From NCBI GenBank assembly GCA_031262565.1, contig JAISHL010000013.1, positions 1 to 17,539 on the forward strand: 17,539 nt of DNA, given 5' to 3'. This document shows, piece by piece, positions 1-13,580 of this stretch. The stretch's first letter is position 1. Every line of letters starts with the position of its first letter. The stretch comes from Candidatus Nomurabacteria bacterium (GTDB lineage: Bacteria; Patescibacteriota; Saccharimonadia; Saccharimonadales; Saccharimonadaceae). The notes below the pieces were generated by a model. That model searched no databases, was not told the DNA's origin, and saw only the letters and a program-made list of their open reading frames with translations. A program made the position numbers and the translations under genes.

Positions 1-476
1 CCCCCCACAGTTTTGATGACGAAGTTAATGATGACGAGCGCGAGCATGGCGAAAATCAGCCCGACGATGGAATATATCAGCATAGATTTGGCTTTTTTTG
101 CCTTGTCGGGCGAGCCTTGCGCCGTGACATAGGTGATTCCAGATACGATTATCATGATCACGCCCAAAACGCCCACGCCCCACATCAGCCAGTTGATGAT
201 GGTTGTGACTAGGGCGTTAGCCTCATCGTCTGCTTCATCATCTGAAATGGAGTCGCTTGGATTCGAAAAAGAAGCTGGGTCGGGGCAAATTGATGGTCTA
301 GGAGTAGCTTGATTGTAGCCTGGATTATTTGGGTGGTATTTATAGCACGGACAGTTTGCATCACTGTAAGGCTTGGATGTGCAATCTGGCACTGCAAAAG
401 CCTGCGCTGGTGTAAAAATACCAACCATACCAAACAAACCAATCGCAACCATAAAGCTTGTCAGAATCTTTTTCAT
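1..476 (-). CDS. TrbC/VirB2-like pilin protein, C-terminus cut by window edge
   Basis: I translated this frame by hand; it is open from the ATG at 476 to the window edge (158 codons). The N-terminus is a signal peptide (MKK, hydrophobic run, cleavage near AQAFA at about residue 28). A Cys/Pro-rich stretch (about residues 30-65, five Cys) and an acidic linker (about 70-87) follow. Two membrane helices (about 97-117 and 133-153) are joined by a short loop with TAQGSPDKAKKAK. This two-helix hairpin with a small polar GxP loop is typical of the VirB2/TrbC pilin group in type IV secretion or pilus systems. The start overlaps the stop of the upstream gene by one base (TAATG), so the two are probably translationally coupled. 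It is the third gene of a pilin-like cluster. Whether the product builds a pilus or serves as a small membrane component is unknown. Confidence 0.8.
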   Translation of the reverse strand, partial: MKKILTSFMVAIGLFGMVGIFTPAQAFAVPDCTSKPYSDANCPCYKYHPNNPGYNQATPRPSICPDPASFSNPSDSISDDEADDEANALVTTIINWLMWGVGVLGVIMIIVSGITYVTAQGSPDKAKKAKSMLIYSIVGLIFAMLALVIINFVIKTVG

Positions 477-1165
477 TAGACTGCCCCCACAACAAAATTA
501 GTGATGGTGAATGCGAGCAGAACGATGACTAAGCCGACTACTGAAAAAATGATCGTATTTTTGCCGTCGGCGGCTTTTTTCGGATCGCCACTCGACATGA
601 TGTATTTGTATGCTCCGATGATGATCATAACCACGGCGACAAGACCGAGGACGAAATAGACTAGGCTTAATGTGTTTTGCAATAATTCGGTGCCGCTCTG
701 TTTGATATTATTATTCATGCGTGAAACGACAAAACTGACCGCGACGGACGACACGATGGCAATCAACATGCCGAGTAGGGCGCGCATAATGGTTTGGCGA
801 CCTTCTTTGGCTTTTCCGGGGTCGCCTTGGGCGGTGATATATTTGAACCCGCCGAAGATTACAAAGCCGACCGCAATGATTGAACCTAAGCGCAAGACAA
901 TGTCGATGATATTGAGGGCGACGGTGAAAACTAGATTAGCAACAGAGCCATGATATTCGCAAACTGTGCCATCAGAAGTCGGTCTTTCTTCGCCAACTAA
1001 TCCACGATACCAAGTTGGAAAATTCAAAAAATTAGAGTTCGGATTATTGCCGACTAAATCACAATCCGCCGCGAGTGCTATGTTTGGTATCGCAAAGCTA
1101 AAAACCGAAGCGACCAGTGAGATGACCGCTAGGGTGAGGCTGAGTTTTTTAATAAATACTTTCAT
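476..1165 (-). CDS. Two-module TrbC/VirB2-like pilin protein
   Basis: 229 residues. Residues 1-32 form a signal peptide ending near NIALA, and the mature part starts ADC. Two similar membrane modules follow. The first spans about residues 76-150 with the loop FKYITAQGDPGKAKEG. The second spans about 162-229 with the loop YKYIMSSGDPKKAADG. Each module has a helix, a GDPxKA loop and a second helix, which is the VirB2/TrbC layout, so the protein looks like an internal duplication or fusion of two pilin units. It lies 4 nt downstream of the next pilin-like gene and overlaps the one after it by one base, so all three are probably one transcript. No good Shine-Dalgarno site precedes the ATG. Pilin-like family membership is fairly sure; the role (T4SS-like pilus, DNA uptake or host attachment) is inferred. 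Confidence 0.8.
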   Translation of the reverse strand: MKVFIKKLSLTLAVISLVASVFSFAIPNIALAADCDLVGNNPNSNFLNFPTWYRGLVGEERPTSDGTVCEYHGSVANLVFTVALNIIDIVLRLGSIIAVGFVIFGGFKYITAQGDPGKAKEGRQTIMRALLGMLIAIVSSVAVSFVVSRMNNNIKQSGTELLQNTLSLVYFVLGLVAVVMIIIGAYKYIMSSGDPKKAADGKNTIIFSVVGLVIVLLAFTITNFVVGAV

Positions 1166-1169
1166 AATT

Positions 1170-1583
1170 TTACCAAAATTTACCTGTTCCTTGTGGTAAA
1201 ATAAAATTCAAAATGGCATACATTGCAAAATAAAGTATGAGGGCAATGATTGCACCACGAATAATCCCCATACCTTTTTTAGCTTGGTCAGCTTTTCCGC
1301 CTGCCGACGAATAGAGTGTCGCGCCGTAAATTATGCCACCGATGACTGCAATCGTGACACCAATGGCTGCCCAGTTGAAGATTGTCATAAGGAGTCCAGC
1401 GATACCATAATCATCCGCATTTGGATCGGATGAGCTACAACCCCAGTCAAAATAAGTTTCCGCCTCGCCGCATTTAGCCGCAAAAACCTGACTAGTCGGC
1501 GCTGTCGCAACTGTAAAAATCGTCGCCAATGCAAAGATGGTGGCTATGAAACTTTGGCGGATTTTATATTTTTTCATGATCAT
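1170..1583 (-). CDS. TrbC/VirB2-like pilin protein, first gene of cluster
   Basis: 137 residues from the ATG at 1583; a second in-frame ATG at 1577 is almost as likely. A signal peptide (to about residue 35, ending SQVFA) is followed by AKC, a short Cys-containing segment (about 36-58) and two membrane helices (about 61-90 and 106-128). The loop between them reads SSAGGKADQAKKG, matching the polar GxxxKA loop of the two genes downstream. The stop is 4 nt before the next start. A promoter ends 6 nt before the ATG at 1583, so the mRNA may be leaderless; a second possible -10 (TATAAC, 1585-1590 on minus) would fit the ATG at 1577. The last residues are GTGKFW. VirB2/TrbC-like pilin is the best reading; the function is not proven. 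Confidence 0.78.
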   Translation of the reverse strand: MIMKKYKIRQSFIATIFALATIFTVATAPTSQVFAAKCGEAETYFDWGCSSSDPNADDYGIAGLLMTIFNWAAIGVTIAVIGGIIYGATLYSSAGGKADQAKKGMGIIRGAIIALILYFAMYAILNFILPQGTGKFW

Positions 1584-1589
1584 GGTTAT

Positions 1590-1618
1590 ATTTTAAACTA
1601 AAAAACGATTTAACGCAA
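1590..1618 (-). promoter_or_regulatory. Promoter of the pilin-like operon
   Basis: On the minus strand, -35 TTGCGT (1613-1618), a 17-bp spacer and -10 TAAAAT (1590-1595). The ATG at 1583 follows after 6 nt, about where transcription would begin, so a leaderless mRNA is predicted. Confidence 0.5.
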
Positions 1619-1661
1619 GTGGGTTTAGAGAAAAAGTATACAGTATTGTTTATAAGCGATC

Positions 1662-1728
1662 GTCATTGTCGGACTTGTTCCGACAATCCAGTGATAAACT
1701 AGATTACCCGAACAAGTCGGGTAATGAC
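1662..1728. repeat. Palindromic repeat, full unit (67 bp)
   Basis: Bounded by GTCATT (1662-1667) and AATGAC (1723-1728), with two hairpins inside: TGTCGGA/TCCGACA in the left half and TTACCCGA...TCGGGTAA in the right half. The last 27 bases (1702-1728) are identical to 2366-2392 inside the desulfurase-like gene and differ at one base from 9943-9969 inside the P-type ATPase gene. The three copies are therefore one family. Confidence 0.88.
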
Positions 1729-1744
1729 GAAAACTATAGACCAT

Positions 1745-1816
1745 GTCATCCTGAACTCGTTTCAGGATCTATAATAATATGAAGTGATGGAGATTCCGAA
1801 ACAAGTTCGGAATGAC
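1745..1816. repeat. Palindromic repeat, full unit (72 bp)
   Basis: Starts GTCATCCTGAA and ends TTCGGAATGAC. The left hairpin is ATCCTGAA/TTCAGGAT and the right hairpin is ATTCCGAA/TTCGGAAT. The architecture matches the unit at 1662-1728 but the stems differ. Its right half resembles the half unit at 2398-2425 inside the desulfurase-like gene. Confidence 0.82.
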
Positions 1817-1845
1817 AAATAAAATGATTATGATGACAATAGTTA

Positions 1846-1977
1846 CTGGATTGCTTCGCTTTACTCGCAATGACAAGAAAATACCTCGCAATGATAAGTA
1901 TAAAGTAGATGCTGAAATAAATTCAGCATGACAAATGGTCATTAGATTTGCCACGTTGCTATGCTCCTCGTAATGAC
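1846..1977. repeat. Cluster of degraded or half palindromic repeats
   Basis: Contains a half unit ending CTCGCAATGAC (1846-1874), a fragment CTCGCAATGAT (1885-1894), a hairpin GATGCTGAA...TTCAGCATGAC (1908-1932) and a unit bounded by GTCATTA and TAATGAC (1938-1977) with CACGTTGCTATGCTCC inside. From memory, the last is like the GTCATTGCGAGGAGCATAGC-type repeats found in several bacterial phyla. Together with 1662-1816 this fills most of the 416-bp gap between the pilin operon and the next gene. I see no gene there. Confidence 0.7.
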
Positions 1978-1986
1978 AAAATATGT

Positions 1987-1992
1987 TATAAT
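1987..1992 (+). promoter_or_regulatory. -10 box of the desulfurase-like operon
   Basis: Consensus TATAAT ends 7 nt before the ATG at 2000, so the transcript probably begins at or next to the start codon. No convincing -35 is seen. The box lies just after the last palindromic repeat (ends 1977). Confidence 0.55.
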
Positions 1993-1999
1993 GGTTATC

Positions 2000-3343
2000 A
2001 TGAAATTTGGTAAAAAATCGGCGAAAAATTCTGATGTGGGCAAGGGTGATTTTGGGTATTTGCCAGAGTCGGCGATTTACTTTGATTCGGCGTGTCAGAG
2101 TTTGCGACCTCAACCCGTGATTGACGCGATGACCGAATATTACACGAAGTTTAACTCTTGTGGTGAGCGCGTGAAATATCAGTGGGGGTTGGAAGTTGAC
2201 GAGCGCGTTGAGGCGACGCGGGCGAAGATTTTGAAAATGCTGAAATTGTCGCCAAAAGAATATTTTGTAAGTTTTACAACAAATACGACTTATGGGATAA
2301 ACTTGATTTTGGAACAACTTGATTTGTCATCCTCGGGCTCGTCCCGTGGATCCAATGAGCAACTGGATTACCCGAACAAGTCGGGTAATGACAATTTGGA
2401 GATCCTGAAACAAGTTCAGGATGACAAAGATAAAACGGGCAGTGACAATACGGGGGCATTGGGAAAAATACAAAAAGTCATCACCAGCGATATTGAACAT
2501 AACTCGCCGTTTCTTGCGACGATGACTTTTGCAAAAAAACATGGCATTCCGCGCGAGATTTTGACGCGCAATGACGACGGCTCGATTGATCTTGATGCGG
2601 TGGATTTTACAAACGCGGTCGTCGTATTGAATGCAGTGTCAAATATTGATGCGCGACAACTGAAAAATATCAAAGACGTGGCGGCGAAAATTCGCAAGCA
2701 AAACGGCATTTTCATCATCGACGCGGCGCAAACTATGGCGAATTATCACGAGTTGATCGCTGGCGTGGAGGCGGACGCGATCTGTTTTTCTTCGCATAAA
2801 ATGTATGGACCGAGTTTGGGCGTGATGGTGGTGCGACGCGAATTATTGAAGAAAATTAACCCGACGTTTATCGGTGGCGGCATGGTTGACGATGTGATGC
2901 GCGACGATTTTGTGTTGAGTGCGAAAAGTCCTGATCACGCGCATACGGCGTTTGAAATGGGACTGCAAGCTTATGCGGAAATTATCGGGCTGGGTGTGGC
3001 GATTGATTGGATTTTGGCGCAAAAGAAAAACGGCGCGGGCGAAAAATTATCGGCGCAAAGTCAAAAATTGTTCGATTTTCTGAAATCTTCCGAGAAAATT
3101 CATCTGATCAACTCGGAGGCGACTACGACAATTAGCTTTTATCATGAAAAAATTGATTCGCATTTGCTCGCCGAGGCGCTGTCGGATCAGGGAATAATGG
3201 CGCGCAGTGGTTATTTTTGCTGTCATTATTATCTGGATCATGTCAAACATTATCCGCCACTCGTGCGCTTGTCGCTGGGGTTGAATACGCGCGACAGTGA
3301 TATTGACGGCGCGATTAAGATTTTGGAGGGAATTGTAAAATGA
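2000..3343 (+). CDS. Class V aminotransferase, cysteine desulfurase (SufS/IscS)-like, with in-frame repeat insertion
   Basis: 447 residues from the ATG at 2000. An upstream in-frame ATG at 1961 lies inside a repeat and before the -10 box, so I prefer 2000. PLP-enzyme landmarks are present in order: FDSACQS near the N-terminus, FTTNTTYGIN, the PLP-stacking His in SDIEHNSPF, Asp in IDAAQT, Schiff-base Lys 267 in SSHKMYGPS, and Cys 407/408 in RSGYFCCHYY where SufS has its catalytic Cys. Known members take sulfur from cysteine as a persulfide for Fe-S or thio-modification. About residues 109-142 are encoded by a palindromic repeat plus a half repeat, and sit in the loop between the GINL helix and the VITSDIEH strand, where SufS has a short turn. 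A GGAGGG near the 3' end and an ATGA overlap couple it to the next gene. Desulfurase activity itself is inferred. Confidence 0.82.
   Translation: MKFGKKSAKNSDVGKGDFGYLPESAIYFDSACQSLRPQPVIDAMTEYYTKFNSCGERVKYQWGLEVDERVEATRAKILKMLKLSPKEYFVSFTTNTTYGINLILEQLDLSSSGSSRGSNEQLDYPNKSGNDNLEILKQVQDDKDKTGSDNTGALGKIQKVITSDIEHNSPFLATMTFAKKHGIPREILTRNDDGSIDLDAVDFTNAVVVLNAVSNIDARQLKNIKDVAAKIRKQNGIFIIDAAQTMANYHELIAGVEADAICFSSHKMYGPSLGVMVVRRELLKKINPTFIGGGMVDDVMRDDFVLSAKSPDHAHTAFEMGLQAYAEIIGLGVAIDWILAQKKNGAGEKLSAQSQKLFDFLKSSEKIHLINSEATTTISFYHEKIDSHLLAEALSDQGIMARSGYFCCHYYLDHVKHYPPLVRLSLGLNTRDSDIDGAIKILEGIVK
2326..2392. repeat. Palindromic repeat inserted in frame in the desulfurase-like gene (67 bp)
   Basis: Bounded by GTCATC and AATGAC, with the same length and two-hairpin layout as 1662-1728. 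It is read in frame as SSSGSSRGS...LDYPNKSGND. Left stem TCCtCGGG/CCCGtGGA, right stem TTACCCGA/TCGGGTAA. The peptide and the reading frame match the copy at 9900-9969. Confidence 0.88.
2398..2425. repeat. Half palindromic repeat, in frame in the desulfurase-like gene
   Basis: A hairpin ATCCTGAA/TTCAGGAT ending in GATGAC, like the right half of 1745-1816. It is translated as part of EILKQVQDDK. It follows the full unit after 5 bases, so this loop received two elements or one composite. Confidence 0.8.
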
Positions 3344-3579
3344 TAGTTATTGAAGGTGTTTGGCTTTGGGTGGGTTTTGCTTTTATAGTGTTAGCTCTGA
3401 TTGCTTTCGTGGTCTTCATGGTTGATAGTAGTAAAAATAAGCCAAAAATGCAATTTACTGAATTAGGTGGAGTTAGACACGGAAGACATTCTGCAAATAC
3501 AAGCTTAGAAGATCTCAAATATAAAGGCGCAAATTATAGTGAAGTTCGTAGTGTTAATGTAAAAAAAGGAAAAAAATAA
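3340..3579 (+). CDS. Small single-span membrane protein, unknown
   Basis: 79 residues. I do not recognise a family. One hydrophobic helix (about residues 5-28) is followed by a polar, basic tail of about 50 residues ending VKKGKK, probably cytoplasmic by the positive-inside rule. The ATG overlaps the TGA of the previous gene (ATGA), and GGAGGG at 3325-3330 lies 9 nt upstream, which supports this start. The stop is directly followed by the next ATG. Its place between a desulfurase-like gene and a membrane thioredoxin-fold gene suggests a role with them, but nothing in the sequence shows what. Confidence 0.68.
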   Translation: MIVIEGVWLWVGFAFIVLALIAFVVFMVDSSKNKPKMQFTELGGVRHGRHSANTSLEDLKYKGANYSEVRSVNVKKGKK

Positions 3580-4650
3580 ATGGTCTGTATTGCTGCGTTT
3601 ATCATCTTGGCGATTATCGTTTTATGTCTGCCAATTATTAGGATTTTTAACAAAAAAACCGCGAACTCGATCTGGTCATTGTTCAAAAAAGCGACGTATT
3701 GTGTCGGGCGACGGACGACTTTTCGCAAGTGTGATTCGAGCTTTAAGGATGATGTCAAAAACAGCATTTTGAAAAAAGTGGTTTTGAAACATCCGACTTG
3801 GGTTAAACCGCTATCTCGGACGATTGAAATTACGGCGGTCGTGATTGTCGTTGTTAGTATTTGGTCGCTACTTGTGGCGGCGAAAGCGGGCGTTTCGTTG
3901 TTTGTTTACGGCACGTGTGATGTGGCGCAACCATCATCATGCTCGTTGTCGGGCGAATCGTGCAGTATTGACAGTCAGCCCGTCGACTTTTTGCAAGATC
4001 CGCTGAAATGGACAGGGAATTGGTTTGCGGAATTTGGCGACGCGATCGTGAATATTCCGACGCGATTGAAAAATTGGAACGCCGACGATTATATTCCAGA
4101 AAACGCCGAGCCGTATAATAAATTTAGCTGGAAAAAGAACGCGCTGGATATTCTCGACCCAGGCTGTTCGGTCTGTCGTGAGTCGTTTAAGAATCAATTA
4201 GAGAGCGGATTTTTTGATAAATATAATGTCGCTGTGATGTTATATCCAATCAAAAATCCTGACGGCGAGTATAAATTTGCTAATTCGTATCTGATAACGT
4301 CGTATATTGAAGCGGCGAGATTGAGGCGACTGGATGGCTCCGAACGACCGATTGAGTGGCAGATTTTGCAGCGATTATTCACCGAAAAAGATGCGGACGG
4401 ACGCGATTTTCAGGTGGCGTTTAATATTTCGTATAACGAAAAGCGCGCGAGAGAGATTTTAGCTGGCTGGCTGGCGGATTTTGGCTATTCCGAAACGCAG
4501 ATTACAGAGATTGCGAAGCTGGCGGATTCTGACGAAGTGCGAGAAATTATTGAAAAAAACATGACGGTCATGAATAATGAGATAAAAAGTAAGCAAATTC
4601 CGACGATGATTTTTGACGGAAAAAGACATGATGGGCTGTTTGAAAAATAG
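3580..4650 (+). CDS. Membrane-anchored thioredoxin-fold protein with CSVC motif
   Basis: 356 residues. Two hydrophobic segments (about 2-22 and 81-107) bracket a basic loop with extra Cys (YCVGRR, FRKCDS). A Cys-rich stretch (about 112-132) and the thioredoxin-like part follow. That part reads ALDILDPGCSVCRESF with C196-S-V-C199, and the expected cis-Pro loop appears near the end as KQIPTMIFDGKRHDG (P341). The CxxC and IPT pair, about 145 residues apart, suggests a DsbA/thiol-oxidoreductase-like fold with a helical insert, as in DsbA. The domain is probably outside the membrane. The start is fixed by an AGGA 9 nt upstream and by abutting the previous stop. Thiol redox work is an inference; redox direction and partner are unknown. 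Confidence 0.68.
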   Translation: MVCIAAFIILAIIVLCLPIIRIFNKKTANSIWSLFKKATYCVGRRTTFRKCDSSFKDDVKNSILKKVVLKHPTWVKPLSRTIEITAVVIVVVSIWSLLVAAKAGVSLFVYGTCDVAQPSSCSLSGESCSIDSQPVDFLQDPLKWTGNWFAEFGDAIVNIPTRLKNWNADDYIPENAEPYNKFSWKKNALDILDPGCSVCRESFKNQLESGFFDKYNVAVMLYPIKNPDGEYKFANSYLITSYIEAARLRRLDGSERPIEWQILQRLFTEKDADGRDFQVAFNISYNEKRAREILAGWLADFGYSETQITEIAKLADSDEVREIIEKNMTVMNNEIKSKQIPTMIFDGKRHDGLFEK

Positions 4651-4668
4651 TTAAAATCGGAGAATAGA

Positions 4669-5688
4669 ATGGATTATTCAAAATTAAATTACAGCGCACT
4701 GGACAATAAAAATCTTTCCAAAAAAGATTTCACCGAGGAGCAATTGGCGATGATAAATACTAAAAAATTTAACAGGATGTTTTTGCGAAGTGTTATCCGC
4801 GTTTCCCTTGGTGCTATAATTATAATTTGGACTGTTTTATCGATAGTTTATATGACAGATGAAACGGGAGAGCAATTGGGATTTTTAGTTCCTCCATTGT
4901 TCCTTGTTATTATTGCACTAGTGGCAGTTTTCGTGATTTCATATGATAGTAGATATAGTAGTAAACGAAATCTCAGTATTTTGCGATTTGCGATAGATAA
5001 TGATCTTCACTATACGACAGACTCAGAAATTACACCTCCAAAAGGTCCTTTGATGTTTAGCATTGGTTATGATCGCAAACAGATAAGAACTTTGATTTTT
5101 CCTGACTTATCAATGTTTGCACTTTATGAATATACTGTCGAATCAGGAAAAAGCAGAGCCACACACTCTCTAGAATTTATGAGTATGATGTTGCCTCGAA
5201 GAGTGCCACATTTACTACTAAACAGCAAGAGAAATATGGTTAGCGTGCCAGTTTATAATTATCAGGTGCAAAAAATTGAGCTGGAAGGAGATTTTAATAA
5301 ATATTTCACAGTTTATGCTCCGCCAAATTATCACGTTGACGCGTTGCAAATTTTAACGCCAGATGTCATGCAAGCTTTTATTAAATATGGTCAAAAATAC
5401 GATTTTGAACTGATCGGTAATAAATTGTATGCATATCGTCATCCATCTACAAAAACTTGGTCGGCAGCTGGAATGCGCGAGGCGTTAACTGGTGTGGCGA
5501 ATGTCGCGTCGCAGATTCGTGAGCAAACGGACACTTATCGTGATGCTCGAATAAATGGAGCGGTGGATATTGTGGCGCCTGACGGTATGCGATTTAAAAT
5601 ACGTCCATCTTGGCAACGTGCGCTGATTGTAATATTAATAGTGCTTTTTTGCTATCTTATGGATTATTTAATAAAAGCATTATTCTAG
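4669..5688 (+). CDS. DUF3137-like membrane protein, unknown function
   Basis: 339 residues. Two membrane helices lie near the N-terminus (about 41-62 and 73-92) and one at the C-terminus (about 318-337), with a soluble part of about 220 residues between. That part holds KIELEGDFNKYFTVYAP followed by LQILTPDVMQAF, which from memory matches the core of the DUF3137 family; the family has no known function. GGAG at 4659-4662 precedes the ATG, and the gene lies 18 bp after the thioredoxin-fold gene, so it probably belongs to the same operon. TAAAAT at 4652-4657 could be an internal -10 box. The base composition looks more AT-rich than in the desulfurase-like gene. It faces the next gene tail to tail with 13 bp between them and no obvious terminator. 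Confidence 0.68.
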   Translation: MDYSKLNYSALDNKNLSKKDFTEEQLAMINTKKFNRMFLRSVIRVSLGAIIIIWTVLSIVYMTDETGEQLGFLVPPLFLVIIALVAVFVISYDSRYSSKRNLSILRFAIDNDLHYTTDSEITPPKGPLMFSIGYDRKQIRTLIFPDLSMFALYEYTVESGKSRATHSLEFMSMMLPRRVPHLLLNSKRNMVSVPVYNYQVQKIELEGDFNKYFTVYAPPNYHVDALQILTPDVMQAFIKYGQKYDFELIGNKLYAYRHPSTKTWSAAGMREALTGVANVASQIREQTDTYRDARINGAVDIVAPDGMRFKIRPSWQRALIVILIVLFCYLMDYLIKALF

Positions 5689-5701
5689 GTGGTGGTGGGT
5701 T

Positions 5702-6337
5702 TTATAAGGACTTTGCTCGTTGCAATAACTTTTCAATCGTCTCCATCTGTAAATTCCAATATGCTTGCCAAGTTTCATCTTCGGTTAGCTCTGTGTCATA
5801 GCGCCAAACGCCATTCAATTTTACCTGAGAAATTGCCGCAAACGAAAATCCAGCAGCTTTGACTGGCGAGGGTTTGTCGATCAAACGAAATTCTTTGATC
5901 GCCGTGTCGGATACGACGTTGTTTTTGTCATTTTTCCGCCACGCCAGCGCATAGCCCCAATGAAATTCCAGCGGAATTGTGCCGCCGTATTTTCGCGCCA
6001 AATCAGCAAAAACTTTTTCGCCGTTCGCGTCGGAATATTCGCCCATTTTTCGCACCACAAATTCCTTGTTATGATTTTTCAGATCATCTTCGTCGGTAAC
6101 TCCGCGCAAAAAACTAACATCGTCACGCGCCAAAACGGGCAAATCGTGAAATTGTTTTGCGTAACCGATCGCTTTTTCTCTGGCGATATTTTCCGCAGTG
6201 TCGGCGGTTTCGTCTGGCTCGGCGAGGTGTAAATTCAGGTCGGCAAATGATAAACCTTCAAGTCCGAGTTTTGACAATTGAGCTTTGGCTGAACGGATTT
6301 TACCAGCGCTGGTTGTGGCAATGAGGATTTGTTGCAT
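5702..6337 (-). CDS. HAM1/RdgB-like non-canonical NTP pyrophosphatase
   Basis: 211 residues. The N-terminus QILIATTSAGKIRSAKAQL matches the ATxNxGKxxE nucleotide-binding start of the HAM1/RdgB family. ETADTAENIAREKA corresponds to the family's ETG.TFxENAxxKA, and LARDDVSFL sits where RdgB has the catalytic ADDSGL; the Asp pair is kept but the rest is altered. Family members hydrolyse dITP, XTP and related NTPs to the monophosphate and keep deaminated bases out of nucleic acids. The length is normal. The altered motif III may mean changed substrate choice. The start is supported by an extended -10 box 6 nt upstream. Confidence 0.72.
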   Translation of the reverse strand: MQQILIATTSAGKIRSAKAQLSKLGLEGLSFADLNLHLAEPDETADTAENIAREKAIGYAKQFHDLPVLARDDVSFLRGVTDEDDLKNHNKEFVVRKMGEYSDANGEKVFADLARKYGGTIPLEFHWGYALAWRKNDKNNVVSDTAIKEFRLIDKPSPVKAAGFSFAAISQVKLNGVWRYDTELTEDETWQAYWNLQMETIEKLLQRAKSL

Positions 6338-6343
6338 GGGAAT

Positions 6344-6352
6344 ATCATAGCA
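6344..6352 (-). promoter_or_regulatory. Extended -10 promoter of the NTP pyrophosphatase gene
   Basis: On the minus strand TGCTATGAT; the box ends 6 nt before the ATG at 6337, predicting a leaderless mRNA. No clear -35. Confidence 0.55.
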
Positions 6353-6355
6353 TTT

Positions 6356-6384
6356 TTGCGTTTTTCTAACAGATCATATATAAT
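6356..6384 (+). promoter_or_regulatory. Promoter for the structured leader and R-M genes
   Basis: -35 TTGCGT (6356-6361), 17-bp spacer, -10 TATAAT (6379-6384). Predicted start near 6390-6391, exactly where the long hairpin begins. The pilin promoter carries the same TTGCGT. It partly overlaps the divergent promoter region at 6344-6352. Confidence 0.6.
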
Positions 6385-6390
6385 AAAAAG

Positions 6391-6521
6391 GCTAAACTTA
6401 AATGAATTTGGTCAACAAACTTTGGTTTGAGAAGACATTGCGACCATATACCGCAAAATTGATTCTCAAATCAAATTTGTTTAAGTTTAGCGACTAATGT
6501 ATGTGGTCGCTTTTTATTTTT
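6391..6521 (+). ncRNA. Candidate structured small RNA or 5' leader of the R-M operon
   Basis: No ORF of note. 6391-6410 pairs with 6472-6491 over 20 bp, including two adjacent wobble pairs (U-G, G-U) in place of mismatches. Further in, 6424-6433 pairs with 6463-6472 over 10 bp with one G-U (base 6472 can serve only one stem). An apical TTGCG/CGCAA stem (6438-6442, 6452-6456) encloses a 9-nt loop. A 13-nt one-sided bulge (6411-6423) interrupts the rod. Wobble pairs suggest selection as RNA rather than as a DNA cruciform. The terminator-like hairpin at 6489-6521 ends it. The rod resembles 6S RNA in outline, but it is short and I cannot assign a family. It could be a free RNA, an attenuating leader, or both. 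Confidence 0.55.
6489..6521 (+). terminator. Rho-independent terminator between leader and methyltransferase
   Basis: AGCGAC (6489-6494) pairs with GTCGCT (6506-6511) across an 11-nt loop, followed by a T-rich tract TTTTTATTTTT (6511-6521). The second arm GGTCGC (6505-6510) can instead pair with GCGACC (6522-6527), which would break the terminator. Confidence 0.55.
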
Positions 6522-6542
6522 GCGACCAGAAAAGTCGCTAAA

Positions 6543-7349
6543 ATGGAAGTTCTTAATAAGAAAATATTAGATAAGGCGTATTTTAGAGAGTCGGATTTTG
6601 TGCTATTTAATGCCGACTGTATTGAATTATTGCAAAAATTACCCGAAAACTCAGTAGATCTGATTTTTGCCGATCCGCCATATAATTTAAGTAATGGCGG
6701 TTTTACGGTTCATTCTGGTAAGCGCGTCGCCGTTAATAAAGGAGATTGGGATAAAAGCCAGGGTGTGCAGAATGATTTTGATTTTCATGTGCGATGGCTT
6801 GAAGAATGTCGTCGAGTTTTGAAAATAAACGGCACAATTTGGATTAGCGGAACTTATCATTCAATTTATCAATGTGGTTACGCATTGCAATTATTGGGTT
6901 ATAAAATTTTGAACGATATTGCATGGTATAAACCAAACGCCGCGCCGAATTTGTCGTGTCGTCGATTTACGGCGAGTCATGAAACGTTAATTTGGGCGGC
7001 AAAATCAGATGATAGTAAATTCACTTTTAATTACGACGCAATGAAAAACGGCGATTTTCTAGATGATTTTATTAAAAAACCAAACAAACAAATGCGTTCG
7101 GTTTGGTCAATTTCTACTCCGCCACCGCGTGAAAAAGTTCTAGGAAAACATCCGACGCAAAAACCATTAAAATTATTGGAGCGAATTATTATATCGTCAA
7201 CGAATAAAAGTGATGTTGTTTTAGATCCTTTCACTGGAAGTTCAACGACTGGAATAGCTTCTGTTGAACTTAGGCGAAAATTTATCGGTATTGACTTGGA
7301 GAAAGATTTTCTGGATTTGTCGATTAAGCGATATGGAGCGATAAAATGA
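6543..7349 (+). CDS. DNA methyltransferase of a type II R-M system (DPPY, beta-type order)
   Basis: 268 residues from the ATG at 6543. An in-frame ATG at 6501 lies inside the terminator hairpin and adds a poorly conserved-looking leader, so I prefer 6543; neither has a Shine-Dalgarno site. Catalytic motif IV DPPY (residues 44-47) comes first, and the AdoMet-binding DPFTGSSTTG (from residue 228) comes near the C-terminus, which is the beta-class order for amino-methyltransferases. GKHPTQKPLKLLERII is the usual segment before motif I. DPPY is typical of N6-adenine (or N4-cytosine) methylation, and the layout recalls the MboII group. It methylates the host site to protect it from the nuclease encoded next, whose start overlaps its stop (ATGA). 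The recognition site cannot be read from sequence. Confidence 0.88.
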   Translation: MEVLNKKILDKAYFRESDFVLFNADCIELLQKLPENSVDLIFADPPYNLSNGGFTVHSGKRVAVNKGDWDKSQGVQNDFDFHVRWLEECRRVLKINGTIWISGTYHSIYQCGYALQLLGYKILNDIAWYKPNAAPNLSCRRFTASHETLIWAAKSDDSKFTFNYDAMKNGDFLDDFIKKPNKQMRSVWSISTPPPREKVLGKHPTQKPLKLLERIIISSTNKSDVVLDPFTGSSTTGIASVELRRKFIGIDLEKDFLDLSIKRYGAIK

Positions 7350-7909
7350 TTGCTGGCGGAGTTGGTGGTGCGAATACGCAAACGGGCGCCGTATTTGAAA
7401 ATGACACAGATTTTGCCAATTTTTTAGCTACCTTAGACGGTTACAAGATTATTGAGAATGACAAACCTGACGTAGTTAATTCTCGTTGGAAAATTATATA
7501 TCAAAACATTGAAGTTGGTGAGATTTTTCGTAAAAAAGGTTTGTATAGATATTTTGCCGAAATTAACTACGATTGGACTTTGCGGATATCAAAGTCAATT
7601 GAGCCAGATGATGCAATCTTTGTTATCGCAAATAATACAGTTTTTATAGTAGAGAAGAAGTATCAAGAAGTTGAAGGTTCAGTCGATGAGAAATTGCAAA
7701 CTTGTGATTTTAAACGAAAACAATATCTAAAATTATTTGCGCCCTTAAATAAAGAAGTTGAATATTGTTATTTATTAAGGCGTGATTTTTTTGACAAGCC
7801 AAAATATAAAGATGTTTTGGATTATATAGTGAGTGTTAGCTGTCAATATTATTTTGACTATATACCTTTACGAAAGTTAGGATTGCCAGTTCCTATTTCA
7901 AATAAATAA
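7346..7909 (+). CDS. Probable type II restriction endonuclease, PD-(D/E)XK type
   Basis: 187 residues. Start at 7346 overlaps the methyltransferase stop (ATGA), with TGGAG 7 nt upstream. A PD-(D/E)XK-like site is visible: P87-D88, then a strand NNTVFIVEKKYQ with E103-K104-K105, giving PD-x14-ExK. GSVDEKLQTCDFKRKQY follows as the helix after the active site. Position directly behind a cognate-type methyltransferase makes it the restriction partner by context. One sampled 60-base line (7621-7680) is 30 percent GC, against 55 percent for a line in the metal ATPase gene (9121-9180), consistent with acquisition by transfer. Its 3' end overlaps the opposite gene by 17 bp. No specificity can be assigned. 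Confidence 0.75.
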   Translation: MIAGGVGGANTQTGAVFENDTDFANFLATLDGYKIIENDKPDVVNSRWKIIYQNIEVGEIFRKKGLYRYFAEINYDWTLRISKSIEPDDAIFVIANNTVFIVEKKYQEVEGSVDEKLQTCDFKRKQYLKLFAPLNKEVEYCYLLRRDFFDKPKYKDVLDYIVSVSCQYYFDYIPLRKLGLPVPISNK

Positions 7910-8636
7910 TCCCCAGTGATTGCTCGACGCGAAAATTTTTAACTCGCGTGGAATTTTGACGTAGCCATTCGTCGGTGGCGCGGGCGGCTCCGGGCAGGGC
8001 TTCGTTTTGATAATCGTCGATCACTATGGTGACATGCGGCGCGAACTGTGGGGCGGTGACGCGGAAGCTGTCGCGGATTGATTCGTAAAAATCGCCGTCA
8101 AAAAATGCGAACGCGATTTTGTTTGGCATATCGCTGTCGGTTAAATCTTTGAACCACGCTTTTTTAATGATCGGCAAGGTCAAGTTTTCTTTTTTGAAGT
8201 TGCGGATCAATTCGGATTTGGTCGCCGCGAGTTCGCCGGCTTTGAAATTGTCGCCGACGCGGGAGTTGTCGGGGGTGGTTTTTTCGGGCAAGCCAGCAAA
8301 ACTGTCGTAAAGGTAAAGCTTTCGATATGTTTTTTCTGTGTCATTTTTCTCGCTCGATACGCTCATCTCGCCCGTCGTCACGGGGAGATCTCGCTCTCCT
8401 TTTTGTCGTCCAAAAAGACGATCTCGCGATGAAAAATGACCTACAGAAGCATTATATTTTTCTAAAATCCGTGCCAAAAACAAACTCGTCGTGCCTTTAT
8501 AACAACCGAGTTCGACAGCGTCGCCGTCAATATCATTCTCTAAAACTCGTAAAAATTCCCGCAAAATCACTTTCAGTTCGCGCGGGTCAACTTGGTCGGA
8601 AACCAGCCGATGTTTGCGCAATAATTCATCAATCAT
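7893..8636 (-). CDS. TylF/MycF-like class I methyltransferase with in-frame repeat insertion
   Basis: 247 residues. The AdoMet-binding strand-loop reads DAVELGCYKGTTSLFLARIL (motif I, about residues 39-58); KLYLYDSFAGLPEKT is the second-strand signature of the TylF (macrocin O-methyltransferase) family, and AFAFFDGDFYESIRDSF and VTIVIDDYQNEALPGA carry the later acidic residues that bind metal and substrate in that family. Between motif I and the second strand lies an insert of about 34 residues (66-99) encoded exactly by a 101-bp palindromic element; relatives have only a short turn there. Relatives methylate sugars or natural products; the substrate here is unknown. It is transcribed away from the metal ATPase gene from a mirror-image promoter. 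Confidence 0.75.
   Translation of the reverse strand: MIDELLRKHRLVSDQVDPRELKVILREFLRVLENDIDGDAVELGCYKGTTSLFLARILEKYNASVGHFSSRDRLFGRQKGERDLPVTTGEMSVSSEKNDTEKTYRKLYLYDSFAGLPEKTTPDNSRVGDNFKAGELAATKSELIRNFKKENLTLPIIKKAWFKDLTDSDMPNKIAFAFFDGDFYESIRDSFRVTAPQFAPHVTIVIDDYQNEALPGAARATDEWLRQNSTRVKNFRVEQSLGIIYLK
8340..8440. repeat. Palindromic element (101 bp) inserted in frame in the TylF-like gene
   Basis: Ends are inverted: GTCATTTTTC at 8340-8349 and GAAAAATGAC at 8431-8440. Two inner hairpins are visible: ATCTC-CCCGT paired with ACGGG-GAGAT (about 8365-8390), and CTTTTT/AAAAAG (about 8399-8417). The sequence differs from the 67-70 bp family but shares the GTCAT...ATGAC ends. It is translated without a stop as about residues 66-99 of the host protein. 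Confidence 0.78.
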
Positions 8637-8643
8637 GGTGATA

Positions 8644-8652
8644 ATTTTAGCA
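8644..8652 (-). promoter_or_regulatory. Extended -10 promoter of the TylF-like gene
   Basis: TGCTAAAAT on the minus strand, ending 7 nt before the ATG at 8636. It is the mirror image of the box at 8668-8676. Confidence 0.6.
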
Positions 8653-8667
8653 AAAACTCCGCGAAAA

Positions 8668-8676
8668 TGCTAAAAT
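8668..8676 (+). promoter_or_regulatory. Extended -10 promoter of the metal ATPase gene
   Basis: TGCTAAAAT ending 6 nt before the ATG at 8683, so a leaderless mRNA is predicted. Only 15 bp separate it from the divergent copy. Confidence 0.6.
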
Positions 8677-8682
8677 GGCAAT

Positions 8683-10572
8683 ATGAAAAAGTTTTGCAAA
8701 GTTATCAAAAAATATTGGGAATTTTCGGCGACGATCGTGCTTGGCGCGGCGACGTTGATCGCAGCGTTTGTTTGCGAGCAACAAATTATTGCGAATTATA
8801 TAATTGGCATATGGGGTGCATTCATTTCGATTTTGATGCTGGTTGACATGATAAAAACTTTGCGCGAGGGCAAATATGGCGTGGATATTTTGGCGATTAC
8901 GGCGATCATTGCGACGATTGCAGTGGGGCAACTTTGGGCGACGCTGGTGATAATCGTCATGCTGACGGGCGGTGAAACTTTGGAAGATTATGCAAATACC
9001 AGAGCTGAACGGGAGCTAAAAGCGCTTTTGGAGCGTGCGCCGCGGATTGCACATTTGGTTTTGAAATCTGGCGAGATTCAAGATGTTGCCATTGGAAAAA
9101 TCAAGCCAGACGATGTGGTTTTGGTTCGCCCACAGGAAGTTGTGCCGGTTGATGGCGAATTATTGGACGTGGAAGCGGAGTTTGACGAAAGTTCGTTGAC
9201 GGGCGAGTCGTTACCTGTGTTAAAATCGGCGGGCGACGGCGTGATGTCGGGATCGTTGAACGGCACGACGGCGATTAAAATTCGAGCGACTGCCGACGCG
9301 AAACACTCGCAATATGAGCAAATTATCGCACTGGTTCGCGACGCGGAAAGCCAGCCAGCACCGTTTGTTCGCCTTGCTGATAAATATGCCGTGCCGTTTA
9401 CGCTGATTTCATACGTAATTGCTGGGGCGGCGTGGGCGACATCTGGCAATCCGACGCGTTTTGCGGAAGTTTTGGTCGTGGCGAGTCCTTGCCCGTTAAT
9501 TTTGGCGGCTCCGATCGCGTTGATTTCGGGCATGTCGCGCGCGAGTAAGCACGGAATTATTGTGAAAAACGGCGCGGTTTTGGAAAAAATGAATCGCGTG
9601 AGTGTGATGGCTTTTGACAAAACTGGGACGCTGACGATGGGAACTGTTTTGGTTGATCAAATTGTGCCAGCGAAGGGTTTTATGGCGAACGAGATTCTAA
9701 AAGTGACATCAGCGGCGGAGGCGAACAGCGCGCATATTTTGGCGGTGTCGCTGGTGAAATATGCAACAGATCGGAAGATAAAATTACCAACTGCGAAAAA
9801 TGTGCGTGAAATGACGGGCGATGGCGTATTTGCGACGATTGACGGGCAAAAAGTTATCGTTGGTCGCGCGGAATTTTTGCGGAAAAATAAGATTGACATG
9901 TCATCCTCGGACTCGTTCCGTGGATCCAGTGATAATAAAGTGGATTATCCGAACAAGTCGGGTAATGACGAAGTTAATGACAAAACCGCGATTTTCGTGG
10001 CGATCGATCACAAATTTGCTGGGGCGATCTATTTTGCGGATCAGGTGCGGGAAAATGCCAAAAAAACCATTCACGAATTGAAGCGCTTGGGAGTTAAAGA
10101 AACGGTCATGTTGACGGGTGACAAACGCGACGTGGCAAATAAAATTGGTTCAACCGCTGGTGTTGATAAAGTTTTTGTGGAACTTTTACCGAAAGACAAA
10201 GTTGAGATCATGCGGAATTTGTGTGGTCGCAAAGATAGTGTGGCGATGGTCGGCGACGGCGTGAATGATGCGCCAGTTTTGGCGGCGGCGGATGTCGGAA
10301 TTGCGATGGGCGCGCGAGGAAGCACGGCGGCGAGCGAATCGGCAGACGCAGTGATCATGTTGGACGATTTGTCGCGCGTGGCGCTTCTGCGAAAAATCTC
10401 AAAACGCACCATCAAAGTCGCCTTGCAGTCGGTTTGGTCGGGGATTGCGCTGTGCTTGATCTTGGAATTGATCGCTGTAACAGGTTTTATTCCAGCGCTG
10501 GTCGGAGCAGGATTACAAGAGTTGATCGACGTTACAGTGATATTTAATGCATTACGGGCGCATAAAGGCTAG
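8683..10572 (+). CDS. P1B-type heavy-metal-translocating P-type ATPase with in-frame repeat insertion
   Basis: 629 residues, without the N-terminal metal-binding domain of many relatives. P-type landmarks are in place: actuator TGES (173-176), membrane metal site SPCPL (268-272), phosphorylated Asp 312 in DKTGTLT, TGD in VMLTGDKRD, and hinge GDGVNDAP (524-531). The SPC form is typical of the P1B-4 subgroup (Co/Zn/Fe-type export), but the last helices read LQELIDVTVIFNALR rather than HEGG, so the metal is unsure. The usual His-Pro pair of the nucleotide domain is HI here (NSAHILAVSL). About residues 406-429 come from a 70-bp palindromic repeat between FLRKNKI and KTAIFVAID, a surface loop at the edge of the nucleotide domain. 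It exports metal ions across the membrane using ATP. Its TAG overlaps the opposite gene's stop. Confidence 0.9.
   Translation: MKKFCKVIKKYWEFSATIVLGAATLIAAFVCEQQIIANYIIGIWGAFISILMLVDMIKTLREGKYGVDILAITAIIATIAVGQLWATLVIIVMLTGGETLEDYANTRAERELKALLERAPRIAHLVLKSGEIQDVAIGKIKPDDVVLVRPQEVVPVDGELLDVEAEFDESSLTGESLPVLKSAGDGVMSGSLNGTTAIKIRATADAKHSQYEQIIALVRDAESQPAPFVRLADKYAVPFTLISYVIAGAAWATSGNPTRFAEVLVVASPCPLILAAPIALISGMSRASKHGIIVKNGAVLEKMNRVSVMAFDKTGTLTMGTVLVDQIVPAKGFMANEILKVTSAAEANSAHILAVSLVKYATDRKIKLPTAKNVREMTGDGVFATIDGQKVIVGRAEFLRKNKIDMSSSDSFRGSSDNKVDYPNKSGNDEVNDKTAIFVAIDHKFAGAIYFADQVRENAKKTIHELKRLGVKETVMLTGDKRDVANKIGSTAGVDKVFVELLPKDKVEIMRNLCGRKDSVAMVGDGVNDAPVLAAADVGIAMGARGSTAASESADAVIMLDDLSRVALLRKISKRTIKVALQSVWSGIALCLILELIAVTGFIPALVGAGLQELIDVTVIFNALRAHKG
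9900..9969. repeat. Palindromic repeat inserted in frame in the P-type ATPase gene (70 bp)
   Basis: Bounded by GTCATC and AATGAC. Read as SSSDSFRGS...VDYPNKSGND, in the same codon phase as the copy at 2326-2392 and three bases longer. Left stem TCCtCGGA/TCCGtGGA, where the desulfurase copy has TCCtCGGG/CCCGtGGA: both arms have changed together. GAAGTTAATGAC follows (9970-9981) and may be a remnant of a further end. Confidence 0.88.
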
Positions 10573-11087
10573 GCGTTATAGTCGTATTGTTTTAGATAAA
10601 AGTTGCCAATATCACTTTGTTTTTGTAGCTCCGATAATATATTAGGATCGCCAGTTTCGGCTGCTATCTTAGCTTTGTTGTATGCGGAAGTGTCAGTTTC
10701 GCCCATTGCAGCATAGTTAATATATCCAATACCTTTATTAGAATATACGCTATAACTCTGCTTTGATTGGTTAACGCCTCTAACTCCTGTTATTTGTGGT
10801 CTTGGTGCGGTATTTGAATTGGGATCTAAACTTAAATCTCGGGCATAACCTAATCTGTCGCCAGCTGCAATATCGCCTTCCTTGTATCGTCGAATTAATT
10901 CCATTTTTACAGGGTTAATTTGTTGAACCTCTTGTTGAGTTTCTTGTGTTGACATATTTAATGCGGTGTTCGCCATAGTATTTTGACGATCATTATTCCA
11001 GTTATTAAATTCTTCAACCTGAGAGGGGTCATTCATGTCATATGATTGACCAGTTTCTGAATTATTTAGCCCTAATACTTCTGCCAT
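10569..11087 (-). CDS. Hypothetical soluble protein
   Basis: 172 residues; I do not recognise it. It has no signal peptide or membrane segment. It is rich in Asn and Gln, with a polar N-terminal half (about 1-60, NNW and QETQQEVQQ stretches) and a C-terminal part with Tyr-rich pieces (SYSVYSNKGIGYINYAAMG) ending YLKQYDYNA. AAGGAG 7 nt before the ATG fixes the start, and a near-consensus promoter lies about 40 bp upstream, so it is likely well expressed. Stop codons of this gene and of the metal ATPase overlap in a shared CTAG. AT-rich compared with its neighbours. Confidence 0.68.
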   Translation of the reverse strand: MAEVLGLNNSETGQSYDMNDPSQVEEFNNWNNDRQNTMANTALNMSTQETQQEVQQINPVKMELIRRYKEGDIAAGDRLGYARDLSLDPNSNTAPRPQITGVRGVNQSKQSYSVYSNKGIGYINYAAMGETDTSAYNKAKIAAETGDPNILSELQKQSDIGNFYLKQYDYNA

Positions 11088-11127
11088 AGTTTACTCCTTT
11101 TTGATTTATTAAACTATTACATTAAGC

Positions 11128-11156
11128 ATTATAGCACAAACACTATAAAAAGTCAA
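11128..11156 (-). promoter_or_regulatory. Strong promoter of the hypothetical gene
   Basis: On the minus strand -35 TTGACT (11151-11156), 17-bp spacer, extended -10 TGCTATAAT with TATAAT at 11128-11133. The predicted leader is about 34 nt and carries AAGGAG. Confidence 0.7.
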
Positions 11157-11180
11157 CAAACAGACTCTTATAAGAGGGAA

Positions 11181-13478
11181 TTACTGTTCGCGCCACATTC
11201 GCATTGGATTTGGACCAGTGACAGGTGTTTTCTTGAACGAAATTGGCGCAGCTGGTTTTTTGGCGACTGGACGGGTTGGTGAAAAACTGGCGGCATTTGG
11301 TCGGCGAACGATTTTTTGCGGACCGCTGAATTTTTGTGAATTACCACCAAATGAGCTGGTTTTATTCTGATTATTAAATGGTTTTCGTGGCGCAAAGTGT
11401 GCGGAAGTTTGACCTTTGATGCGTGCAATTTCTTGCTGCTCAAAGTCGCGGTTGCGATCTTCAAAGCGCTGTTCAGTGCGACGAGCTGGCGAACTATTTG
11501 TCGAGCCAATTTCGTTAATAACAGGGATAACAATCGGATTATGCTGTGTTTGATCATACAAAATCTGGGAAATCTCATCACGCAAGTCGCGTTTGAAATC
11601 GTCCATGTCAACGCGACGCGACGCATAAACTCGCGCCACTTTTTGCTTAACATATTGGCGAATTGAGTTGATCAAATCTTCGCTATCACGCAGATAAATA
11701 AACCCGCGCGAAATGATGTCTGGCGAGGAAAGCATGCGTCCCGTGCCACGCTGAATTGTCAATACTACAACAAAAATTCCCTCTGTTGACATATGAATGC
11801 GATCCTTCAAAACGACATCTGATACGACCGCACCCGCGTTGTCATACATGACATTGCCGACATAAACGCGACCAGTGCGCGCCGCTGTGCCGTCATGGTA
11901 AAACTCCACAGTATCACCTGCGTCGCAAACGAAAATATTTTGCTTTGGAATGCCGCAATCGCGATGCGCCAGTTCGGCGTTATGCACCAAAAATGTGAAA
12001 TCGCCGTGGTTCGGGAAGTAGAATTTTGGATTCAATGCGTTAATAAATTTGACGTGGTCGTCGTGGTGACCGTGACCACCAGTGTGAACTGCGCCAACCC
12101 CATAAAACGCCGCGTTGTTTTTTGAAATCACGTCGCAACCTTCGCGGATCAAATTGTCTTCCATCATGGCGACATGACCTTCGTTGCCTGGAATGCGCGA
12201 GCTTGACAGCACGATAATGTCGGAATTTTTAATCTTAATCCAACGGTGCGCACCACTTGCCATGCGGTTCAAAACAGCGTTCAATTCGCCCTGATTTCCT
12301 GTGCAGAGAATACAAACTTGACTGTCTGGTAGATTAACAATATCTTCCAATTTCATTATGGTATTATTTGGGATTCGTAAGTCGCCAGTTCGCAGTGCGA
12401 TCTCGACGTTGTTGATCATGGAATAGCCAGCAACGGCAACTTTGCGACCGTGTCGCGCGGCTTCGTTGATGGCAGTTTGCAAGCGGTGAATTTGCGAGCT
12501 AAATGACGAGATGATCACGCGAGAATTTGGAAATTCGTTCATGACGGTTTCAAAACTCATGCGGATTTCGTCTTCGGTGGCGTGGTTTTCACCTGGCACT
12601 TCACAGTTGGTTGACTCGTTGATCAATAATTGGATTCCTTCGGTCGTGGCAATTTCGGTCAAACGCTCCAAGTCGAATTTTCGTCCGTCTAATGGATCTG
12701 GAGTAAAACGCCAGTCGCCAGATGAAACCACAACGCCAACTGGTGTGCGAATTACAACACAAGCGGAGTCGGGAATCGAGTGATTGACGCGAACTAATTC
12801 AATCGAAAAATACTTGCCAACTTGCACGCGGTCGTGATTTTCTGGGTTCAAAACATGGTAATCTGGCGTAAAATCGGTGTCTTCCTCCTCCATATTTTTT
12901 TTCAACATTTCGGTCGTGAATTTTGTCGCATAAACTGGCGCAGGAATTTTCGGAATCATATGGTGAAAAGCGCCAATGTGATCAAGGTGTCCGTGCGTGA
13001 ATACGACTGCTTTGATCTGTTCTTTGCGCTCTTCAAGATACGTAATATCTGGCACGACGTAATTGATGCCGGGGAAATCATCACCAGGGAACATAAAGCC
13101 CATATCAATCACAACAATTTCGTCGTCATATTGCAAGGCGGTTGTGTTTTTACCTATCTCTGTGCCGCCGACAGGGATAACTTTTAGACACGGCTTGTCT
13201 TTGGTTTTTGTCTTGCCGAGCGTGGCGCGCTTTTTTCCTTCGGTCGTGTTGTATTGCTCGCCACCAAATCCGTTAAAAATAGACTTGTTGACTGGCATAG
13301 AAATGTCCATGATTGAAGCGCGCAAATTCACATTGTCGCTGACGCGTCGCTGTGCGCGCATAACTTCGCCGCGGCGCGTTGTGGTTGCGTCGAGGACGGA
13401 ATTGCCAGTTTTTTGGCGTGTGGTTGGTCGCTTTGATAAATCATCAGCCTGCGATTCGGCTAGTCGTTGTTGACCCAT
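11181..13478 (-). CDS. rnj: Ribonuclease J (metallo-beta-lactamase/beta-CASP nuclease)
   Basis: 765 residues, longer than the roughly 555 of typical RNase J. A charged, low-complexity N-terminal extension of about 95 residues precedes the start of the metallo-beta-lactamase fold (LKVIPVGGTEIGKN). The metal-binding THGHLDHIGA is at 161-170, and SGDWRFTPDP and the beta-CASP segment (FSSQIHRLQTA, GYSMIN) follow. The HTGGHGHHDD and YFPNHGDF motifs stand for the usual HxSGHAS and PVHGE. The last 110 or so residues are basic, with many Pro, Asn and Phe, and look disordered. RNase J degrades and matures RNA as an endonuclease and 5'-3' exonuclease. The start is supported by AAGGAG at 13485-13490. 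A promoter about 100 bp upstream gives a long leader with a hairpin at its 5' end. Confidence 0.92.
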   Translation of the reverse strand: MGQQRLAESQADDLSKRPTTRQKTGNSVLDATTTRRGEVMRAQRRVSDNVNLRASIMDISMPVNKSIFNGFGGEQYNTTEGKKRATLGKTKTKDKPCLKVIPVGGTEIGKNTTALQYDDEIVVIDMGFMFPGDDFPGINYVVPDITYLEERKEQIKAVVFTHGHLDHIGAFHHMIPKIPAPVYATKFTTEMLKKNMEEEDTDFTPDYHVLNPENHDRVQVGKYFSIELVRVNHSIPDSACVVIRTPVGVVVSSGDWRFTPDPLDGRKFDLERLTEIATTEGIQLLINESTNCEVPGENHATEDEIRMSFETVMNEFPNSRVIISSFSSQIHRLQTAINEAARHGRKVAVAGYSMINNVEIALRTGDLRIPNNTIMKLEDIVNLPDSQVCILCTGNQGELNAVLNRMASGAHRWIKIKNSDIIVLSSSRIPGNEGHVAMMEDNLIREGCDVISKNNAAFYGVGAVHTGGHGHHDDHVKFINALNPKFYFPNHGDFTFLVHNAELAHRDCGIPKQNIFVCDAGDTVEFYHDGTAARTGRVYVGNVMYDNAGAVVSDVVLKDRIHMSTEGIFVVVLTIQRGTGRMLSSPDIISRGFIYLRDSEDLINSIRQYVKQKVARVYASRRVDMDDFKRDLRDEISQILYDQTQHNPIVIPVINEIGSTNSSPARRTEQRFEDRNRDFEQQEIARIKGQTSAHFAPRKPFNNQNKTSSFGGNSQKFSGPQKIVRRPNAASFSPTRPVAKKPAAPISFKKTPVTGPNPMRMWREQ

Positions 13479-13553
13479 ATTTTTCTCCTTAAATTACTCT
13501 TTTATTCCGTAAGATTTGACATTTTTCAAAATTTTCTAAACCCTATCGAGAAT

Positions 13554-13568
13554 GCGATCTTCTATCGC
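13554..13568 (-). promoter_or_regulatory. Hairpin near the 5' end of the RNase J mRNA
   Basis: GCGAT/ATCGC, 5-bp perfect stem with a 5-nt loop, about 6 nt from the predicted transcription start near 13574. It could shield the mRNA's 5' end from the exonuclease it encodes; that role is inference. Confidence 0.4.
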
Positions 13569-13580
13569 TTAGTGATTAAA

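Follow-up and report, generated by a model that had tools for sequence, protein, structure and literature searches.

Palindromic repeats lying in frame within conserved genes are best known from Rickettsia. A survey of CGTC-tagged repetitive extragenic palindromes (REPs) (Di Nocera, De Gregorio, Rocco 2013, PMC3733652) places the R. conorii Rickettsia palindromic elements (RPEs) RPE-6 and RPE-4 in groups CGTC-1 and CGTC-4, respectively, and covers five phyla, among which Patescibacteria are not listed in the portions of its text available to us. Here we analysed a 17,539-nucleotide stretch of DNA (hereafter the window; GCA_031262565.1, contig JAISHL010000013.1, positions 1 to 17,539) from a metagenome-assembled genome (MAG) labelled Candidatus Nomurabacteria bacterium (GTDB family Saccharimonadaceae, Patescibacteriota), in which related palindromes are read within a SufS-like cysteine desulfurase gene and a metal ATPase gene. 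The source genome (G000, the window being its contig C45) comprises 587,657 bases in 89 contigs and is estimated to be 70.85% complete. The anatomy of the repeats matches that of CGTC-tagged REPs, so that they would belong to the superfamily that includes RPE-4 and RPE-6, a link drawn via the published CGTC classification. We consider it very probable that these palindromes, often as dimers, spread as small non-autonomous selfish DNA that is tolerated within genes.

The repeats are built from REP hairpins of ~30 nt, each with a (C/T)GTC tag, a 9-bp stem that starts with AT, a loop of 5 nt and a tail of the CCA type. An earlier sequence-only reading of the window had described palindromes of 67–70 nt; the repeat is real, but each such palindrome is made of two ~30-nt hairpins placed head to head. 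A second class of units has 8-bp stems (e.g. 1744–1817, 1906–1933 and 2399–2426), and a third has the form GTCATTGCGAG...GAAGCAATC (e.g. 1849–1874). Among 90 strict units identified in the genome, 51 have 8-bp and 39 have 9-bp stems, with loops of 5 nt, and 58 of the 90 are arranged in 29 head-to-head dimers. Tails are CCA or CTA/CTC-like, and with few exceptions among the listed units the tag begins with C or T; as the strict scan selects units by GTC at the tag position, the tag is present by construction, stem and loop anatomy is partly imposed, and only the first base of the tail is. Features shared with CGTC REPs as described in the survey (PMC3733652) are the GTC tag, the 8–9-bp stem starting with AT, the 5-nt loop, the CCA-type tail, the head-to-head arrangement of dimers, the occurrence of copies within genes and the absence of a linked transposase. 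For the last of these, the Y1 transposase domain (Y1_Tnp) had no match in the 71%-complete genome, other transposase families not having been searched. The repeat units of the window and the genes that carry them are as follows.

2325 to 2393, + strand: head-to-head dimer of CGTC REPs with 9-bp stems (2325–2354 on +, 2364–2393 on −), within the SufS-like gene and read as SSSGSSRGSNEQLDYPNKSGND
2399 to 2426, − strand: single CGTC REP unit with an 8-bp stem, in the same SufS insert, where the gene reads EILKQVQDDK
2327 to 2461, + strand: whole 45-aa insert of the SufS-like gene, from alignment to relatives
2000 to 3343, + strand: predicted SufS-like cysteine desulfurase gene (Pfam Aminotran_5; resembles solved cysteine desulfurases; ATG codons at 1961 and 1991 are possible alternative starts)
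9899 to 9970, + strand: head-to-head dimer of CGTC REPs with 9-bp stems (9899–9928 on +, 9941–9970 on −), within the metal ATPase gene and read as SSSDSFRGSSDNKVDYPNKSGND
8683 to 10572, + strand: predicted heavy-metal-translocating P-type (P1B) ATPase gene, from family matches
1661 to 1729, + strand: intergenic dimer of the 9-bp class, grouping with in-gene copies and one base off the copy in NifS (C66:588)
1744 to 1817, + strand: intergenic head-to-head dimer with 8-bp stems (1744–1771 on +, 1790–1817 on −), from the unit scan
1849 to 1874, − strand: third-class unit GTCATTGCGAG...GAAGCAATC
1906 to 1933, − strand: single intergenic unit with an 8-bp stem, from the unit scan

The two in-gene copies from which the sequence-only reading started (2326–2392 and 9900–9969) are present at those positions, in the same codon phase and with near-identical peptides, and the copy that it regarded as non-coding (1661–1729) is spanned by no frame of at least 100 aa. 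It had also remarked on a matched change in a stem pair, which is real: the pair (G-C versus A-T) lies beside the loop and is A-U in 12 and G-C in 3 of 15 copies; the left hairpin of both in-gene copies has a T-T mismatch. The best NCBIfam match of the SufS-like gene is sufS, with a score below the family cut-off. Here the dimer peptide had been correctly recognised, but the insert extends further than was supposed, to 45 aa (2327–2461), because the 8-bp-class unit at 2399–2426 comes after the dimer. The interval 1583–2000, which separates the SufS-like gene from a divergent gene for a small protein, is dense in repeats, including further degenerate ends. No Rfam family matched anywhere in the window at gathering thresholds. 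The best matches of the window's MurE-like protein (Mur ligase domains) are MAGs labelled Saccharibacteria, the top one at 75% identity, and the genome, which the sequence-only reading had called an apparent Candidate Phyla Radiation (CPR) genome, is accordingly taken to be a member of Saccharibacteria.

The element extends far beyond the three places first noticed. A 67-nt BLAST query located 23 places in the genome (query included), 14 of which lie in frames of at least 290 aa. A covariance model of the dimer, built on 15 copies (10 of them in genes) and used to locate places, gave 71 matches at E ≤ 1, often with a single place matched on both strands. The strict unit scan covered 123,470 bases and found 90 units there, whereas none of 25 dinucleotide shuffles yielded any; these bases (21% of the MAG) are stretches around hits plus the window rather than a random genome sample, and weaker matches were only partly fetched. 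Nearly half of the units (42/90) fall within stop-to-stop frames that are 200 aa or longer. This count takes in C77:3636, a possibly extragenic unit at the very beginning of its frame, as well as two units in a 296-aa frame of contig C89 that has no Pfam match. In-frame copies occur in 18 named genes, five of which encode aminoacyl-tRNA synthetases: HisRS, MetRS, ArgRS (two sites), LeuRS, PheRS beta, GatB, RNase HII-YraN, M1 aminopeptidase, CTP synthase (PyrG), a NifS-type desulfurase (two sites), PolA, RsmA, LepA, PcrA, ExoIII, RecJ and the SufS-like and ATPase genes of the window. PheRS beta and RecJ are known as hosts via the third class only, and the LeuRS, LepA and PyrG frames reach contig ends. 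PolA- and UvrD-type repair genes are likewise among the hosts in the published survey (PMC3733652, PMC2229807). Plasmid and phage records gave no match to the 71-nt dimer region, and so no carrier there.

Comparison with relatives, which covered seven sites in five of the 18 host genes, indicated that these positions are generally empty elsewhere while homology of the host frame continues on both sides of each insert. The 45-aa insert of the SufS-like protein is absent from 9/9 aligned relatives, and in 33 of 35 aligned homologues (chosen from 119 listed) the conserved positions on either side are 9 residues apart, versus 54 here; three more, longer homologues read by eye also lack it. In a family sample, a match was obtained in 81 of 198 genomes; among matches with at least 50% identity, only that of G000 was split at the insert site. 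The other two of the 35 homologues, both metagenomic (P0004 and P0015), have different inserts at the same site (SSLRATRSNLSNDD... and CHCEKRNDEAIQ...), which may be translations of third-class units, judging by how they read. The ATPase peptide is absent from 13/13 relatives, in which the loop varies in length. Moreover, site 1 of ArgRS and site 1 of NifS are each empty in 11/11 relatives, site 2 of NifS is short in 10/11 (one has a longer, unrelated loop), the PyrG site is short in 8/9 (the ninth, G001 from the same genus, having an unrelated linker) and site 2 of ArgRS is short in 9/10. The exception at this last site is G003, whose ArgRS gene (L323) has a different insert of ~45 residues in the same loop, in DNA without an obvious unit of the scanned classes. 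No aligned relative kept the peptide without the DNA palindrome. Alignments to homologues and solved structures suggest that the inserts are placed in loops.

In the genes of G000, 9-bp units use one phase in 23/23 cases and 8-bp units in 18/19, and third-class units read VIASxxKQS in 5/5. Stop codons alone fail to explain this phase use, because intergenic 9-bp units have both of the unused sense phases open in 16/16 cases and the used phase in only 3. Of the 16 in-gene dimers, 15 are read in whichever open frame is most hydrophilic (P 3e-4 if open frames were chosen at random), although three of the full set have a single open frame. As for length, 9-bp dimers are a multiple of three long in 10/10 cases in genes versus 1/6 in intergenic DNA (p 0.001), and 8-bp dimers share the in-gene length class in 5/6 cases in genes versus 1/7 outside (p 0.03). 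Two further genomes (G001 and G044) taken together have the same phases in 10/11 9-bp and 13/15 8-bp units, several of which are at frame ends and perhaps non-coding.

An alignment and tree of the 16 strict 9-bp dimers placed all in-gene copies (10/10), together with the intergenic copy at 1661–1729, apart from the five other intergenic copies. Those five have TTATCGG/CCGATAA stems, and therefore a TAA in the reading frame, and are 70 or 74 nt long; the group containing the in-gene copies has TTGTCGG/CCGACAA or TCCTCGG/CCGTGGA stems and lengths of 69 or 72 nt, C81:4374 having a different right half. The copy in NifS (C66:588) and the window's intergenic copy differ by a single base. In addition, a loop codon is serine in 9/11 in-gene sense 9-bp units, whereas only 4/16 units between genes have C as the corresponding base (p 0.006); three control groups lack this shift (p 0.67, 0.48 and 0.24). 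The change from leucine to serine was considered as proof of selection on the peptide, but is weakened as such by common ancestry within the sublineage. We tentatively suggest, as a possibility that falls short of an even chance, that there is a coding-compatible REP sublineage in which a paired A-T to G-C change removes the stop, the length keeps the frame and the loop codon mostly has serine for leucine, and which would now spread among genes as a passenger that is neutral at the peptide level, with peptide selection shaping mobile DNA in a reduced CPR genome.

Taken together, the CGTC anatomy, the empty sites in relatives and the in-frame copies in 18 named genes bear out the idea, raised in the sequence-only reading, of Rickettsia-like inserts that are tolerated in genes. 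REP palindromes would multiply within the genome as small, non-autonomous selfish elements, perhaps by means of a Y1/HUH-type transposase acting in trans or through hairpin copying during replication. Most landings in genes would be lost via a frame shift, a stop codon or a hydrophobic segment, and the survivors would be those with a frame-keeping length, a Ser/Asp/Asn/Lys-rich peptide frame and a loop position. One sublineage of 9-bp dimers, stop-free and of frame-keeping length, may therefore be tolerable in gene after gene. The peptides are probably translated, given the open homologous frames on both sides. The observations are largely explained by a known kind of selfish palindrome, with an unusually clear trace of its filtering by coding sequence.

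Other explanations account for parts of the evidence. Retention of the hairpins for a role in mRNA (translation speed, co-translational folding or mRNA stability) would fit the two short hairpins, in which 97.3% of cells are paired over 15 aligned copies, 5 pairs are changed on both sides and the covariation score exceeds 500/500 shuffles (the pair-type count is unremarkable, being reached by 260/500 shuffles). However, the two-sided changes largely separate subfamilies, and such covariation is also expected from a DNA element copied as a hairpin. The full-length hairpin, with 78.5% of cells paired, shows no excess over shuffles and was rejected as a conserved structure, covariation supporting the short hairpins but not the long one. 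Nor are stems better preserved inside genes than outside (mismatched 9-bp stems in 5/23 versus 1/16 units, and 8-bp stems in 1/19 versus 3/32); the hosts are unrelated, and the inserts are absent in relatives. An mRNA role appears very unlikely; the RNA-level function suggested earlier found no positive support, and nothing here favours it.

Recruitment of the inserts for protein function, for example as a binding segment common to several enzymes, is very improbable. It would agree with the occurrence of one near-identical peptide in unrelated enzymes and with the serine shift in genes against flat controls, but serine may be inherited within the coding sublineage, relatives do without the inserts, and the different peptides found at this SufS position in P0004 and P0015 argue for tolerance rather than a shared role. 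An artefact of assembly or binning, by which repeats were wrongly joined into genes, deserves consideration in so fragmented a MAG, repeats being a usual cause of misassembly. Nevertheless, the homology that runs on in one frame on either side of the insert (seven sites, five genes), the placement of these genes' best relatives in the same genus or family, and the same pattern in UvrD, NifS, RsmA and TrmD of other Patescibacteria make it scarcely credible.

Several points weigh against the interpretation of these repeats as tolerated selfish DNA. The frame and length tests were framed after the data were seen, and overstate the number of independent events because copies descend from one another. 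Other Patescibacteria are looser in their phase use, some genes reading SVILNSIQDPD or SVIPANAGIQ, and in-gene copies that are clearly internal are few in G001, a member of the same genus. Target-site duplication, sought at codon level, was not readable at this divergence; with neither a readable duplication nor a linked transposase, the case for mobility is built on the number of copies, their near-identity and the empty sites.

The covariance model matched 7 of 61 related genomes, G000 included, those in G004, G012 and G051 being candidate matches; the lone match in G020 (E 0.004) proved on inspection to contain no unit. Over a sample of 379 genomes from across the phylum, 61 had matches; loci from 29 of these were scanned with a somewhat looser filter, and every one of the 29 genomes showed at least one unit of the G000 anatomy (29/29). 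Six in-gene cases were seen elsewhere, in a UvrD-type helicase, a NifS-type desulfurase (two sites), RsmA, TrmD, a glycosyltransferase and a methyltransferase-like protein, and the RsmA of genome L305 carries inserts at a site other than that used in G000. A UvrD-type helicase of another Patescibacteria genome (L297, 119–1984, + strand) has a Hint/intein-like module in addition to a REP dimer. A Y1 transposase of the REP-associated tyrosine transposase (RAYT) kind was rejected as a linked mobiliser, there being no match in G000 and no unit in 8/8 Y1 loci or in 2 longer stretches. Y1_Tnp is present in 3 of the 7 relatives with the REP model and absent from 4. Across the 379 genomes it occurs in 41/61 with the model versus 136/318 without (p 7e-4, ignoring relatedness and genome size), and 20/61 lack it.

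Since there are 18 named host genes here and model matches in 61 of 379 genomes of the phylum, CPR genomes offer a natural experiment on selfish DNA passing through coding sequence and leaving new protein segments. The results also bear on a question left open by the 2013 survey (PMC3733652), namely whether CGTC repeats still move and by which enzyme, because an in-gene and an intergenic copy are one base apart and no Y1 transposase was detected.

Elsewhere in the window, three adjacent small and apparently membrane-spanning proteins (at least 158, 229 and 137 aa) are encoded at 3–1583 (− strand) and look like tandem relatives, with similar motifs (GxPxKAKxxK, GDPxKAxxG and GKADQAKKG). At 6501–7909 (+ strand), a DNA methylase (PF01555) overlaps a protein with a sub-threshold PD-(D/E)XK nuclease match (PF20472, 21.6 bits versus a cut-off of 23.7), perhaps forming a restriction-modification pair. 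A protein at 14931–15779 (− strand) has a dimethylarginine dimethylaminohydrolase match just over the Pfam cut-off (PF19420) and a weak arginine deiminase match.

In the literature searched, mostly non-subscription, no report of such repeats in Patescibacteria, Saccharibacteria or CPR was found. The words Patescibacteria and Saccharibacteria are absent from the main text of a 2025 REP survey (PMC12306157), and in the accessible text of a Saccharibacteria paper (PMC11257099) 'palindromic' refers to CRISPR. This is a known kind of palindrome in a lineage for which we found no published record. GTAG REPs with RAYT transposases are similar in being tagged short hairpins with dimers and scattered copies, but differ in their tag, and in that G000 has no Y1_Tnp match and the 8/8 Y1 loci of related genomes are without a CGTC unit. 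With respect to CGTC REPs, the use of one phase per class and a coding sublineage are not described in the text compared (PMC3733652), its supplementary intragenic list lying outside the comparison. The repeats of G000 differ from Rickettsia palindromic elements in their phylum and in the size of their dimers, which at near 70 nt are shorter than RPE-1 (105–146 bp), and resemble them as palindromes that lie in frame in unrelated conserved genes and appear to be tolerated there.

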